Shown one piece after another: positions 47,009-53,644 of a DNA stretch of 64,000 nt (its first letter is position 1; each line of letters begins with the position of its first letter). The position numbers and the translations under genes were made by a program. The DNA lies in NCBI RefSeq assembly GCF_005406125.1, contig NZ_BIXZ01000001.1, positions 248,001 to 312,000 of the forward strand, read 5' to 3'. The notes under the pieces were generated by a model that was not told the DNA's origin, ran no database searches, and saw only the letters and a list, made by a program, of their open reading frames with translations. This DNA comes from Haloarcula mannanilytica. GTDB lineage: Archaea > Halobacteriota > Halobacteria > Halobacteriales > Haloarculaceae.

Positions 47009-49666
47009 ATGGTTGACTTTACCCGACGACAAGTGCTTTCACAGTCGGTGGCTGCTGCGCTTGGGGCCAGCGTCATCGGCGTGTCAAGTGGCGAAGAGGT
47101 CGAAGAATCCGACACACCCGGCGCACCGAGCGTCAAAGGAGAACTCAAGCGGCTCTCCACGACGGCTTTCGGGGCCGAGGTAACGGGACCGTTCGTCTTC
47201 GAGGACGGGTCGCTGCTGTACAGCCTTCAGCATCCCGAGGGGGAAAACCCCGAACCGTTCGGTCGGGCCGCAGTGGGCTATTTCAGCGGCTTCCAGTTCA
47301 CGTTCAACGGGAGCAACGACGACTTCCAGGAAGTCGGTGTACCGGACACCGAGGAGAAACAGCGGCAGGTCCGGTCCGCGACCGGCGACTACGAGATTCT
47401 CGTACAGGGCCGCGAGCCGATCAACGGCGGCGAGGAGCGCCTCGGCGTGACCCAGACGCCCGACGGAACGGACGTGACTCCCGAGAACTTCGCCGGTGCC
47501 AAGGGCGGGGTCGGTGCGGGACCGGACTGTAACCAGTTCGTCCCGACGAACGACGAGGGGACCGAGGGCTATCTCTTCACGAACTGGGAGAACGTCCCCG
47601 GCTGCATCTCGCGAGTGCCGCTCAGCCAGGACGAAAACGGCGAGTGGAGCGCGGACACCGAGAACGCGATGAACGTCGTCAACACGGAGGCGTTCCGCGA
47701 ACTCGGCGGCACACGAACCAACTGCTACGGCGACCTCAGCCCGTGGGAAACGATGATCTCCGCCGAAGAGAACTACGCCCACGCTCGGGTCCATCGGACC
47801 GCGACGGTAGGGGACATCGTCGAGGCTGGCACGGGCGTCGGCCTGCTTGGCGGCTGCCAGTTCTGGAACCGACCGAACCCGGCCGGTATCGTCGACGCGA
47901 TCAACACCTACGCCGAGAACGGCGACATCAGCGAAGCGTGGACGCCACAGGGAGCCTGGTCACAGATCGGCAATGAGGGGCTCGCGTACTACCTCGGTGC
48001 GGAACCGTCCGACAATGAAGACGGCGAGAACACAACGACCCCCATCGACGATGTCTACCCCAACCCATACCGCTTTGGCTACTTCGTCGACATCCGCAAG
48101 CCGGCAGCCGAGACGCCAAATCCCATCAAGTACTGGGTGATGGGCCGGGCCGCCTACGAGGCCCCGGACATTCAGGGCGACCGGAAGACGGTGTACATGT
48201 GCTCCGACGGCGACAGCAAGGGCATCTACAAGTTCGTCGCTGACGAGCCAATCGACAGCTACGAGAACACTGACGACATCGCCGGGACGCTGTACGCCCC
48301 GAAGATCACCAACGACACGGCCAGTGTCGCCGAATCGGACAGCCGCAACTCGCCCGCACAGACGCCCCTCGAAGTCGAGTGGCTCGAACTCGGGCACGCC
48401 ACCAACGGCGAGGTCGAATCCTGGATCGCCGACTACGACGAGGTTACGCAGGCTGACTACCTCGAAGCACACGCCGAAACCGACTGGCAGGAAGACACGT
48501 CGGCAGCGATCAAGGAGGCCGACCTCGAAGTCCTCAAAAACGGGAACCAGAACTACATCACCAACGAGGAAATCGTCGAATGGGCCACCCAGTACGAACA
48601 GAACGGTCCCGACGGCGTCGACGAAGACCTCCGACGGGTCCCGTTCCTCGAAACCCGTGCCGCGGCGAAGGAAATCGGCGCATCCATCGAGTTCAACAAG
48701 GCCGAGGGCGTCGACACCATGGACAACTCCCAGCCCGGGGACTTCATCTACTTCGGCATCTCCGAGTTCAACGACGGGCTCGCCGACGACGAGGGCGACA
48801 TCCAGATGGACCGCGTCGACGGCGGCGTCGTCTACCGCGCCGAACTCGAATCCGACTACAACGTCTCGACGCTCGAACCCGTCATCACCGGTCCGGACTT
48901 CACCGACTCGCCGGAAGACGCCGACGACGCGCTTCGGAACATCGACAACGTCTATACGATGCGCGACGGCCGCGTCCTCTGCTGTGAGGACGGCTTCGGC
49001 GGTCCCACGCGCTCCTACCCCAACGACGGTCTCTACGTCTACCAGCCGAACGTCATCGTCAGCGCTGGCTCCGCCGCGGTCGGCGGCGGGTCGACGGGCA
49101 GCGTGCCGCTAACCGCCTCCTCGCTCCCCGCCGGCTTCTCCGGTGCGCGACTCACCGTCAGCGTCTCGAACCCCGACATCGCGTCGATCACTGGCGTCTC
49201 CTTCCCGGACTCGCTGGGCCTCACAGAGCAGTCTGTCAGTGACGACGGCGCTACGGCCACCATCCGCGTGGCCGATGTCGACACGAACGTCCAGTCCGGT
49301 GGCATGGACGTTCCCCTCGCGACGCTCGACGTGCGCGCCGACAGCGGCGGCACGACCGACCTCACCGTCTCGGTCGAGCAGATGGACGACGAGAGCGGGA
49401 CCGCCATCGAGGCGGAGACTCGGAACGGGCTCATCGTCGGCGGCCCCGATACGATTATCGGTGACGCCGCACCGACCGACCCCGACGGCGACGGGCACTT
49501 CGAGGACCTCAACGGGAACGGTCGCCTCGACTACGAGGACGTGCAGGTCCTGTTCGAGAACATGGATTCGGACAGCGTCCGCCTGAACGTCGGTGCCTAC
49601 GACTTCAACGAGAACGGCCAGATCGACTTCGCGGACGTGACCGAACTCTACGAAGAGGTCAACTGA
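47009..49666 (+). CDS. PhoX-like (DUF839) secreted phosphatase with C-terminal cohesin-like and dockerin-like domains
   Basis: An 885-residue protein starting MVDFTRRQVLSQSVAAALGA, a twin-arginine (Tat) signal. Residues about 40-675 form the DUF839/PhoX beta-propeller, with CYGDLSPWETMISAEENYAH (metal-site Glu and Asp), GGCQFWNRPNPAG and CSDGDSKGIYKFVADEPI. PhoX enzymes are Ca2+/Fe3+-dependent phosphomonoesterases. About residues 682-805 look like a cohesin (VSAGSAAVGGGSTGSVPLTA, with beta text). Residues about 824-884 form two EF-hand-like repeats (DPDGDGHFEDLNGNGRLDYE and DFNENGQIDFADVTELYEE), as in type I dockerins. It probably attaches to a cohesin on the cell surface, such as the next gene's product. 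Confidence 0.85.
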   Translation: MVDFTRRQVLSQSVAAALGASVIGVSSGEEVEESDTPGAPSVKGELKRLSTTAFGAEVTGPFVFEDGSLLYSLQHPEGENPEPFGRAAVGYFSGFQFTFNGSNDDFQEVGVPDTEEKQRQVRSATGDYEILVQGREPINGGEERLGVTQTPDGTDVTPENFAGAKGGVGAGPDCNQFVPTNDEGTEGYLFTNWENVPGCISRVPLSQDENGEWSADTENAMNVVNTEAFRELGGTRTNCYGDLSPWETMISAEENYAHARVHRTATVGDIVEAGTGVGLLGGCQFWNRPNPAGIVDAINTYAENGDISEAWTPQGAWSQIGNEGLAYYLGAEPSDNEDGENTTTPIDDVYPNPYRFGYFVDIRKPAAETPNPIKYWVMGRAAYEAPDIQGDRKTVYMCSDGDSKGIYKFVADEPIDSYENTDDIAGTLYAPKITNDTASVAESDSRNSPAQTPLEVEWLELGHATNGEVESWIADYDEVTQADYLEAHAETDWQEDTSAAIKEADLEVLKNGNQNYITNEEIVEWATQYEQNGPDGVDEDLRRVPFLETRAAAKEIGASIEFNKAEGVDTMDNSQPGDFIYFGISEFNDGLADDEGDIQMDRVDGGVVYRAELESDYNVSTLEPVITGPDFTDSPEDADDALRNIDNVYTMRDGRVLCCEDGFGGPTRSYPNDGLYVYQPNVIVSAGSAAVGGGSTGSVPLTASSLPAGFSGARLTVSVSNPDIASITGVSFPDSLGLTEQSVSDDGATATIRVADVDTNVQSGGMDVPLATLDVRADSGGTTDLTVSVEQMDDESGTAIEAETRNGLIVGGPDTIIGDAAPTDPDGDGHFEDLNGNGRLDYEDVQVLFENMDSDSVRLNVGAYDFNENGQIDFADVTELYEEVN

Positions 49667-49705
49667 CGACTTCGCCCGAAATTTCCCATCTTTCCATACA
49701 CGACA

Positions 49706-50428
49706 ATGACTGACAGCACCCACCTTTCGATACGCGAGCGGACCGTTCACCTGGCCCTCGTACTCGCTGCGCTCACCCTCCTCGCGGGCACGCTTCCCGC
49801 AGTCGCGGCGGCCCAGAGCGGCCCGACGGTCACCGTCGGAAACGGAACCGTCACCGCCGGAGAGACGACGACAGTCCAGGTGGTCCTCACGAGCGCCCCG
49901 GACGGCCTGGCCGGCTATCAGGTCGAACTCGCGCTTGACGACCCCGCAGTGGCCCAGTTCGACAACGCCAGCTACCCCGACCGCTTCGCGCTTACCACGG
50001 ACCCCGTCGTCAGCTCCGACGGAGGGACGATAACCATTGAGGCGGCTGATCTGGACGGCGCAATCGAACCCGGCGCCGGCAACGTGACGCTGGCGACCGT
50101 CGAGATCGCCGGTGGCGAAGCCGGTGAGACGGGCCTGACAGTCGCGTCCGGCCAGTTCGACGCGGACGGCGGGGAAGCCATAGAGCCCGCGACGGAGCCG
50201 ACGACGGTCACGGTGTCGTCGGGACCGACGGAGACGGCCGTCACGGGGAACTCGGCGTCGGCGACCGCCGCGGACTCGACTGACGGCGAACCGAGCACTG
50301 CGAGCGCCGAAACCGACAGCGGCGACAATCAATCGACGACCGCGGCCGCCGGTCCGCTCGCGCTCCCGCTCGTCCTCGTCGCGCTTGGCGTGGCAGCGGC
50401 ACTCGCAGCCAGAGCCGGTCAACCGTAG
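49706..50428 (+). CDS. Cohesin-domain surface protein with C-terminal membrane anchor
   Basis: A 240-residue exported protein. The signal segment is ALVLAALTLLAGTLPAVAAA. Residues about 38-170 form a cohesin-type beta domain: GPTVTVGNGTVTAGETTTVQ, then APDGLAGYQVELALDDPAVA and NVTLATVEIAGGEAGETGL, the usual cohesin opening and closing patterns. A Ser/Thr/Asp-rich stalk (about 170-215) leads to a C-terminal helix (GPLALPLVLVALGVAAALAA) and a short RAGQP tail. It resembles a PGF-CTERM tripartite end without the PGF. It begins 39 bases after the dockerin-bearing PhoX, so the pair is likely co-transcribed and may dock together. Confidence 0.78.
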   Translation: MTDSTHLSIRERTVHLALVLAALTLLAGTLPAVAAAQSGPTVTVGNGTVTAGETTTVQVVLTSAPDGLAGYQVELALDDPAVAQFDNASYPDRFALTTDPVVSSDGGTITIEAADLDGAIEPGAGNVTLATVEIAGGEAGETGLTVASGQFDADGGEAIEPATEPTTVTVSSGPTETAVTGNSASATAADSTDGEPSTASAETDSGDNQSTTAAAGPLALPLVLVALGVAAALAARAGQP

Positions 50429-50825: not shown

Positions 50826-53162
50826 ATGGTCGATTTTACTCGACGACAGGTACTATCGAAATCGGTGGCTGCTGCGCTTGGGGCCAGCGTCATCGGTGTG
50901 GCAAGTGGTGACGAAGTCGAAGAATCCGATACACCCGGCGCGCCGAGCGTTAAGGGGGAACTCAAGCGGTTCTCCACGACGGCCTTTGGGGCCGAGGTAA
51001 CAGGACCGTTCGTTTTCCAGGACGGGTCGCTGCTGTACAGCCTCCAGCATCCTGAGGGGGGAAACCCCGAGCCGTTCGGAACCGCCGGTATCGGCTACTT
51101 CAGCGGCTTCCAGTTCGAACTCGACGGGGACAACGACGACTTCGACGAACTGGGGACGCCACAGACCGAGGCGGAACAGCGACGGGTCCGGTCGGGCAAC
51201 GGTGAGTACACCATCTTCGCCCACGGCCGTGACGAAATCAACGGCGGCGAGGAGCGCCTCGGCGTCACGCAGACGCCGGACGGCATGGACATCACGCTGG
51301 ACAATTTAAACGGGACACAGTACGGGGCCGCCGCGACGAACCCCGACTGCAACCAGTTCGTCCCGACGAACGACGAGGGGACCGAGGGCTACCTCTTCAC
51401 CAACTGGGAGAACAGCCCGGGCAACGTCAGCCGAATCCCACTGAGCCAGACGCAGGGCGGCGAGTGGGAAGCCGACCTCGATGACGCGCTCAACCTGGCG
51501 AACACGGAGCCGCTCCGCGAACTCGGTGGCACCCGGATCAACTGCTACGGCGACCTCAGTCCGTGGGGGACGATGATATCCTCCGAGGAGAACTACGCCC
51601 ACCCGCGCGTCTCGCTGACCAACCAGGTCGGCGACATCGTCGACGCCGGCACCGGCAAGGGACGCATCGGCGGCTGCCAGTTCTGGAACCGGCCGAACCC
51701 GACCGGTATCCAGAGCGCCGTCGATGACTACTACGGCGACGAGTCCTGGGGCATCCAGGGGTACTGGGCGCTGGACGGCGTGGAGTTCCTCGCGTACTAC
51801 CTCGGTGCCGAGCAGGCCGACCAGACCGACTACATCAACACCATCCAGCCGATAACCGACGTGTACCCGAACCCGTACCGCTACGGCTACCATATCGATG
51901 TCCGCGAGCCGACGGCCGACCCGCCACAGCCGATTAAATACTACGTGATGGGGCGGGCGTCGTGGGAGGCCCCGAACATCCAGGCCGACGAGCAGACCGT
52001 CTACGGCTGTTCCGACGGCGACAGCAAGGGCATCTACAAGTTCGTCGCCGACGAGCCGATTCCGAGCTACGAGGACCCGATGGACGTGGCGGGAACGCTG
52101 TACGCGCCAAAGATCACCAACGCACAGGCCAACGCCTCGATGGTCGGCACACGGAAATCCCCGGCGCAGTACCCGCTCGAAATCGAATGGATGCCGCTGG
52201 GTCACGCGAGCAATGCGGAAATCGAGGAATGGATCGCCGAGTACGACGGTATCACGCAGGCCGACTACCTCGAAACCCACGCCGAAACCGACTGGGAAGA
52301 GGACCTCGAAGCGGCCCTCGAAGAAGCCGACCAAGCTGTCGTCGAGGACGGGAACCAGAACTACATCACGAACGAGGAAATCGTCGAGTGGGCCGACCAG
52401 TACTATACCGAAGGCCACGACGGCGTTGACGAGGAACTCCGCCGCGTGCCGTTCCTCGAAACCCGCGCCGCGGCCAAGGAAATCGGCGCATCCATCGAGT
52501 TCAACAAAGCCGAGGGCGTCGACAGCAGGGACGGCGCTGGACCCGGCGACCCGGTCTACTTCGGCATCTCGGAGTTCAACGACGACCTCGCCAACGACAC
52601 CGGCGACATCCAGATGGACCGCGTCGACGGCGGCATCGTCTACCGCGGCGAACTCGAAGAGGACTACAATATCTCGACGCTCGAACCTGTTATCGTCGGA
52701 CCGGACTTCACCGACGAACCGGAAGACGCCGACGACGCGCTCCGCAACGTCGACAACGTCTACGTGATGGACGACGGTCGCGTCCTCTGCTGTGAGGACG
52801 GCTTCGGTGGCCCCGCCCGCACCTACCCCAACGACGGCCTCTACGTCTACGAACCGCCGGAATCCGAAGAGGACGAAGAGGAAACAGAAGACGGTGAGGA
52901 AACAGAAGACGGAGAGGAAACCGAGGACGAGGAGGAGACCGAGAACGGAGAGGAAGAGACTGAATCGCCGGGCAACAGCACAGACGCACCCGACAACACC
53001 GAGACCCCGGGGAACAGCACTGACACCCCCGGAAACAGTACCGACGCGCCAGGCAACAGTACTCCTGGTAACAGCACTGACGCTCCTGGCAACAGCACTG
53101 CCACGCCCGGCAACGGCAACAGCACTGCCACGCCTGGCAACGGCAACAGCACCGGTAGCTAA
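50826..53162 (+). CDS. PhoX-like (DUF839) secreted phosphatase, paralogue with acidic repeat tail
   Basis: A 778-residue Tat-exported protein (MVDFTRRQVLSKSVAAALGA), closely related to the PhoX at 47009. The first 85 residues differ at only a handful of positions, and the metal-site region reads CYGDLSPWGTMISSEENYAH. The DUF839 domain runs to about residue 675. Instead of cohesin and dockerin, the tail has an acidic stretch with repeats of EETEDGE (about 677-715) and an NSTDTPGNSTDAPGNST-type repeat region (about 720-778), rich in sequons. No membrane helix follows, so it is probably secreted or held by charge. It arose by tandem duplication including the promoter. Confidence 0.88.
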   Translation: MVDFTRRQVLSKSVAAALGASVIGVASGDEVEESDTPGAPSVKGELKRFSTTAFGAEVTGPFVFQDGSLLYSLQHPEGGNPEPFGTAGIGYFSGFQFELDGDNDDFDELGTPQTEAEQRRVRSGNGEYTIFAHGRDEINGGEERLGVTQTPDGMDITLDNLNGTQYGAAATNPDCNQFVPTNDEGTEGYLFTNWENSPGNVSRIPLSQTQGGEWEADLDDALNLANTEPLRELGGTRINCYGDLSPWGTMISSEENYAHPRVSLTNQVGDIVDAGTGKGRIGGCQFWNRPNPTGIQSAVDDYYGDESWGIQGYWALDGVEFLAYYLGAEQADQTDYINTIQPITDVYPNPYRYGYHIDVREPTADPPQPIKYYVMGRASWEAPNIQADEQTVYGCSDGDSKGIYKFVADEPIPSYEDPMDVAGTLYAPKITNAQANASMVGTRKSPAQYPLEIEWMPLGHASNAEIEEWIAEYDGITQADYLETHAETDWEEDLEAALEEADQAVVEDGNQNYITNEEIVEWADQYYTEGHDGVDEELRRVPFLETRAAAKEIGASIEFNKAEGVDSRDGAGPGDPVYFGISEFNDDLANDTGDIQMDRVDGGIVYRGELEEDYNISTLEPVIVGPDFTDEPEDADDALRNVDNVYVMDDGRVLCCEDGFGGPARTYPNDGLYVYEPPESEEDEEETEDGEETEDGEETEDEEETENGEEETESPGNSTDAPDNTETPGNSTDTPGNSTDAPGNSTPGNSTDAPGNSTATPGNGNSTATPGNGNSTGS
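52853..53162 (+). repeat. Degenerate tandem repeats coding for the acidic and PGNST tail
   Basis: Within the PhoX paralogue the DNA is built of short repeats: GAGGAAACAGAAGACGG-type units (coding EETEDGE), then GGCAACAGCACTGCCACGCC-like units (coding PGNSTATPGNGNS). These are in-frame coding repeats, prone to length change by slippage. They are not a CRISPR array, as there are no unique spacers of regular length. Confidence 0.75.
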
Positions 53163-53221: not shown

Positions 53222-53644
53222 ATGGCGCAGACCGACAACTCGAACACAGTAACGGACATGGAGACGTATCGTGAGTACATCCTCGGCGTTCGAATCGTCG
53301 AGTGGACCACAGCCGACGGCGAGGTCCGGTATCGCTTCGAGGCCCCGGACCACCAGGGCGTCAAGTTCGACGACCCCGAGATGGCGACGCTGTACGCTGA
53401 CGTGTACTTCGACGCGAACGGCTTCCAGGAAGCCGGAACCGGCGAACGCGGCGTGCCGCCGACGGTTATCCAGGCCGGCCGCGATACGCTCGTCGCCTAC
53501 TTCCTCACGCAGGACGGGGTCGATGTCCACTGGGCGGCGTCGTTCTACGGCGAGAAACCGGAGAAGATCGAGCGGTACGCGTCACGCGTCCGCAAGCGGT
53601 CGAAGAAGATCCGCGACGGGGCAAAAGAGCAGGGCCACGCCTGA
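53222..53644 (+). CDS. Conserved haloarchaeal protein of unknown function
   Basis: A 140-residue protein starting MAQTDNSNTVTDMETYREYI. Its beta-rich centre includes RIVEWTTADGEVRYRFEAPD and DTLVAYFLTQDGVDVHWAAS. It ends with a basic helix (KIERYASRVRKRSKKIRDG), unusual in this acidic proteome and possibly nucleic-acid or membrane-lipid binding. There is no signal peptide or membrane helix. It starts 60 bases after the second PhoX on the same strand, but there is no clear functional tie. I do not recognise the family. Confidence 0.7.
   Translation: MAQTDNSNTVTDMETYREYILGVRIVEWTTADGEVRYRFEAPDHQGVKFDDPEMATLYADVYFDANGFQEAGTGERGVPPTVIQAGRDTLVAYFLTQDGVDVHWAASFYGEKPEKIERYASRVRKRSKKIRDGAKEQGHA

Follow-up and report, generated by a model that had tools for sequence, protein, structure and literature searches.

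This locus raises the question of whether an exported phosphatase of Haloarcula mannanilytica is held at the cell surface by the product of the gene next to it. Within the window, by which we mean the whole stretch of 64,000 nucleotides that was analysed, a PhoX-like phosphatase ending in a cohesin and a dockerin is encoded directly upstream of a small single-cohesin protein, hereafter the anchor (Table 1). We consider it very probable that the exported phosphatase is docked, in a calcium-dependent manner, on this neighbouring membrane cohesin at the cell surface, because the gene pair is nearly always kept and because one dockerin tyrosine is lost whenever the anchor is lost.

Table 1. Coordinates of the features discussed (positions in the window)
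Feature	Position	Strand	Remark
PhoX-like phosphatase gene, C-terminal cohesin-dockerin tail, 885 aa	47009..49666	+	
PhoX catalytic domain, Pfam residues 220-666	47666..49006	+	
Tail cohesin, immediately 5' of dockerin	49049..49447	+	profile E 1.1e-46
Dockerin domain, two EF-hand-like loops	49460..49660	+	sole genome dockerin at E<=1e-3
Dockerin Ca loop 1, DLNGNGRLDYED	49505..49540	+	
Tyr, position 10 of loop 1, proposed recognition residue	49532..49534	+	PMC8063739 for role of position 10
Dockerin Ca loop 2, DFNENGQIDFAD	49601..49636	+	
Gap, PhoX stop to anchor start, 39 bases	49667..49705	+	short spacing kept, frame not
Anchor gene: exported protein, one cohesin, Ser/Thr-rich stalk, C-terminal hydrophobic segment, 240 aa	49706..50428	+	
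Anchor cohesin domain	49823..50218	+	profile E 1.7e-50; Foldseek best E 2.4e-10
C-terminal hydrophobic segment GPLALPLVLVALGVAAALAARAGQP	50351..50425	+	PGF-CTERM at this place in relatives
Second PhoX paralogue, no cohesin/dockerin, PGNST-rich C-terminus	50826..53162	+	

The 885-aa protein matches PF05787 (PhoX) above the cut-off (E 2.4e-21, 76.9 bits against 24), and its motif NCYGDLSPWETMISAEENY aligns to NC..KTPWGTYLTCEENF of the PhoX structure 3zwu (NC...PW...EEN). By eye, the N-terminus (MVDFTRRQVL...) carries an RR motif and a signal of the twin-arginine type. The tail and anchor cohesins are homologous to each other (34% identity; profile E 1e-46), and in a cohesin tree the PhoX-type tail cohesins and the anchor cohesins fall in different parts, with modest support. 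In the dockerin, the duplicated loops follow the type I pattern (PF00404), with D or N at positions 1, 3, 5 and 9 and Asp at 12, and AlphaFold2 predicts a helix after each loop. ORF, profiles and homology thus agree with an earlier note on this DNA, which had described a PhoX-like protein with a terminal cohesin-like domain and two EF-hand-like repeats; the type I spacing that it recognised stands, although the strings it quoted lie slightly off the true loops, DLNGNGRLDYED and DFNENGQIDFAD.

With respect to the dockerin and cohesin profiles that the note had suggested searching, relatives match them, whereas the window's own domains stay below threshold. Dockerin_1 matches 21 of 22 relatives' tails (best E 3e-6; up to 25.3 bits) and the C-terminus of the window PhoX at E 0.0025 to 0.001 (18.4-19.7 bits, under the Pfam cut-off of 22.9), while Cohesin (PF00963) matches 10 of 25 relatives' anchors at E<=0.1 (best E 2.6e-7) and the window anchor at E 0.09 (13.4 bits; cut-off 24.1). 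Searched against the PDB, the tail profile recovers the solved dockerins 5lxv, 2yik, 2mte, 1daq and 6kgc among EF-hand proteins; a sequence profile built from the anchor proteins matched nothing there. As modelled by AlphaFold2 (pLDDT 86–97 across most of its length), the anchor domain has the cohesin beta-sandwich fold of PF00963, and its best 50 Foldseek matches in the PDB are all cohesins, including 2xdh (best E 2.4e-10). Since relatives match the profiles and the anchor fold matches PDB cohesins, both domain identities are secure.

The anchor protein starts with a hydrophobic signal, and PGF-CTERM, an archaeosortase sorting signal, is found in 6 of 25 relatives' anchors (best E 1.4e-7). 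The earlier note had described the gene 39 bases on as encoding essentially one cohesin on a Ser/Thr stalk with a C-terminal membrane helix, and its coordinates, its single cohesin, the stalk and a hydrophobic segment at the C-terminus are confirmed. The PhoX and anchor genes lie in the same frame in this DNA and in some relatives; translational read-through of the PhoX stop was considered and rejected, because the frame differs in most relatives and the linker is not conserved.

We propose that the phosphatase, which has no membrane anchor of its own, would be exported via its twin-arginine signal, and that its C-terminal dockerin would fold round two calcium ions and plug into the cohesin of the adjacent gene's product. 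The C-terminal segment of this product would fix it in the cell membrane, as suggested by the PGF-CTERM lipid-anchoring signal seen in relatives, and docking would keep PhoX, presumably active as a phosphatase, and the phosphate that it releases at the cell surface, from which the cell may benefit. The dockerin-anchor stretch, which is naturally in frame, was modelled twice with AlphaFold2, with Trp at the stop and without calcium (7 and 16 paired rows including the window). The runs gave confident individual domains, but the relative placement in this predicted complex, proposed earlier as a check, was not confident (pTM 0.54 and 0.58); the docking pose is therefore unsupported, and the runs neither support nor exclude a complex.

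The gene pair is widely conserved in other haloarchaea. In a set that covers the family and samples the order, 86 of the 92 distinct tails of PhoX proteins have an anchor downstream, and these pairs come from several Halobacteriales families. The anchor cohesin starts 94–320 bases past the PhoX stop or, for the first of two tandem PhoX genes, past the stop of the second. All 26 named loci from a genome scan (Haloarcula, Halorubrum, Haloplanus, Natrinema, Natribaculum, Halopiger, Halomicrobium and Halorientalis) have the PhoX–cohesin–dockerin gene followed by the anchor, with one PhoX cut by a contig end. The source genome holds in total one dockerin (E<=1e-3) and two cohesins (E<=1e-4), those of the tail and the anchor, and the anchor is therefore the only cohesin besides the tail's own. 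Among 146 family genomes, dockerins and cohesins occur together in 50, singly in 9 and 3, and neither in 84 (Fisher 6e-26, uncorrected for ancestry). The second PhoX, which adjoins the pair, has PGNST repeats at its C-terminus and lacks a hydrophobic segment there; a 140-aa protein (53222-53644; REYILGVRIVE...) with no Pfam match lies beside PhoX, on either side, in 26/26 named loci.

Six PhoX tails have the dockerin and lack the anchor. Position 10 of loop 1 is Tyr in 86/86 anchored tails and D, H or R in 6/6 anchorless ones, and it is the only column among ~200 tail residues that separates the two groups fully; the aspartate calcium ligands are kept in all six anchorless dockerins. Dockerin positions 10 and 11 are well-established determinants of cohesin specificity (PMC8063739). 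Read from the sequences, the cleanest case of joint anchor and Tyr loss is that of G365 and its congener G329. Both have the same gene downstream, but G365 lacks the anchor gene between it and PhoX, and of the 25 columns that are invariant in anchored tails only this one has changed, from Tyr to Asp. Whole-genome searches of five of the anchorless genomes (G040, G050, G173, G186 and G365) returned no other cohesin at E<=0.01, and the sixth, G052, has three weak cohesins only, elsewhere on its main contig. A contig-end artefact was discarded as the source of the missing anchors, with at least 1.4 kb of downstream sequence present and the anchorless genomes searched whole. The Fisher value of 1e-9 for the association of Tyr with the anchor overstates the case, because parsimony on the tree yields two independent events (sign test p 0.5); as PhoX provides two events and PhoD a single one, sign tests are unable to reach significance. 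Two further genomes depart from the usual arrangement: G021 encodes a PhoX with a tail cohesin, without dockerin or adjacent anchor, and in G292 (C2:787460-787857) the anchor cohesin is split across two frames, which reflects either an error in sequencing or loss of the anchor in the very recent past, while both PhoX dockerins retain the Tyr.

These patterns bear on what the dockerin binds. That it mainly binds the phosphatase's own cohesin, within the chain or head to tail from one molecule to the next, and that the anchor has another role, is in our judgement improbable: tail cohesin and dockerin do sit together, and the tail cohesin persists in 6/6 anchorless PhoX and in G021, yet the Tyr decays on anchor loss though the tail cohesin stays, a pattern not expected from self-binding alone, and it would go unexplained why a second cohesin gene is so strictly paired with PhoX. 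Slightly less credible still is that the EF-hand pair serves to bind substrate, the role given to the dockerin in papers on polysaccharide enzymes of haloarchaea (PMC10963439; PMC13260240), or is a calcium-stabilising module, with a neighbouring cohesin that is coincidental or only co-regulated, against which stand the 86/92 linkage, the co-occurrence of dockerins and cohesins, and the loss in anchorless tails of position 10 and not of the aspartate calcium ligands. Docking of PhoX at the cell surface, the reading first offered in the earlier note, is supported by the profiles in relatives, the fold, the 86/92 pairing and the Tyr loss, and from these we infer the binding itself.

Furthermore, the tail proves to be a cohesin-dockerin tandem common to other phosphatases, a point absent from the earlier note. 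We find it on PhoD phosphatases (PF09423, E<1e-105) of seven family genomes and two genomes of other families (G336 and G298), on 5'-nucleotidases (G064, G411 and Halorientalis persicus) and on choice-of-anchor-I proteins (G081 and G411). All of these have the Tyr, no anchor gene of their own was found near them, and their genomes carry the PhoX anchor, G298 aside (contig end). Within the subfamily of secreted PhoD proteins, 8/8 of the anchor genomes tested have the tail, against 0/15 PhoD genes where the genome has no PhoX-type anchor, although the tailed proteins form one clade. Phosphatases without the tail also exist, among them the window's second PhoX and other PhoD proteins. The restriction of the PhoD tail to anchor genomes suggests a shared port, and we tentatively raise the possibility that one membrane cohesin serves several secreted enzymes that scavenge phosphorus, the tailed PhoX, PhoD, 5'-nucleotidase and choice-of-anchor-I propeller alike. 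Chains might then grow without a scaffoldin into a phosphate-gathering surface complex, since every docked enzyme offers another cohesin.

Dockerin-ended proteins next to a membrane cohesin are also observed with other clients, namely an SNase nuclease (L095), adhesin-like proteins (L088 and L096) and a propeller/PKD protein of Methanoregulaceae (L089), and a GH3 enzyme with one EF-hand loop lies beside a membrane cohesin in L097. That the coupling recurs behind N-terminal domains of unrelated kinds supports docking as the function these pairs have in common.

Other arrangements of the same modules were seen in the genomes. One haloarchaeon (G063:C1:2386000-2402000) has a cellulosome-like cluster with a single-cohesin membrane anchor, a scaffoldin-like protein with five cohesins, a dockerin and a Tat signal, a GH5-cohesin-dockerin and a GH5-dockerin. 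The single 2.7 Mb contig of G045 carries 41 dockerins and 15 cohesins, with several ORFs having two or three cohesins. In a second pair type (G028:C5, G030:C1 and C4, G031:C10, G037:C37, G062:C2 and G064:C2), a cohesin protein of ~300 aa adjoins a very long dockerin ORF on the opposite strand. At G043:C3:676000-684000, a multicopper oxidase-dockerin lies beside an adaptor-like protein with two cohesins and a dockerin, and another dockerin protein.

Our literature search returned no paper joining cohesin, dockerin and Haloarcula, and an earlier listing of the modules in haloarchaea is possible. Haloarchaeal dockerins have been interpreted as substrate-binding modules (PMC10963439; PMC13260240), whereas here the dockerin has a likely cognate cohesin adjacent to it and a residue predicted to govern recognition, and its client is not an enzyme of polysaccharide degradation. 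This suggests non-covalent retention of exported enzymes on archaeal cells, offers a potential salt-tolerant coupling pair and raises the question of whether cells scavenge phosphate through an organised complex at their surface.

Compared with known systems, the window PhoX belongs to the same catalytic family as the PhoX alkaline phosphatases (PF05787; 3zwu and 4a9v; PDB profile E 1.7e-8), from which it differs in being distant and in its added cohesin-dockerin tail. An archaeal cohesin-dockerin pair, that of Archaeoglobus fulgidus, was reportedly described by Bayer in 1999 and Voronov-Goldman in 2011 (PDB 2xdh), and we know of no enzyme of known function in it. Both systems consist of archaeal, non-cellulosomal modules, and the anchor model has a TM-score of 0.77 to 2xdh; unlike the A. 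fulgidus pair, the present one has a phosphatase client and a stalked anchor with a C-terminal anchoring segment, and it occurs in many genera. The A. fulgidus pair binds and has been used in E. coli surface display (PMC9705933, PMC9012536). ANME archaea have surface proteins and transporter parts with dockerins, as well as multi-cohesin proteins (PMC9012536), with partners left unassigned there, in contrast to the private pair of neighbouring genes found here, for which a recognition residue is predicted. A cellulosome, with its multi-cohesin scaffoldin and polysaccharide-degrading enzymes, is not what this genome encodes, having a single-cohesin anchor, a phosphatase client and one dockerin. 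As in the anchoring scaffoldins of bacterial cellulosomes, the dockerin is on the client and the cohesin on the cell-bound partner; unlike in those systems, there is one cohesin per anchor, the client is a phosphatase with a cohesin of its own, and relatives of the window anchor carry an anchoring signal of the archaeosortase type.
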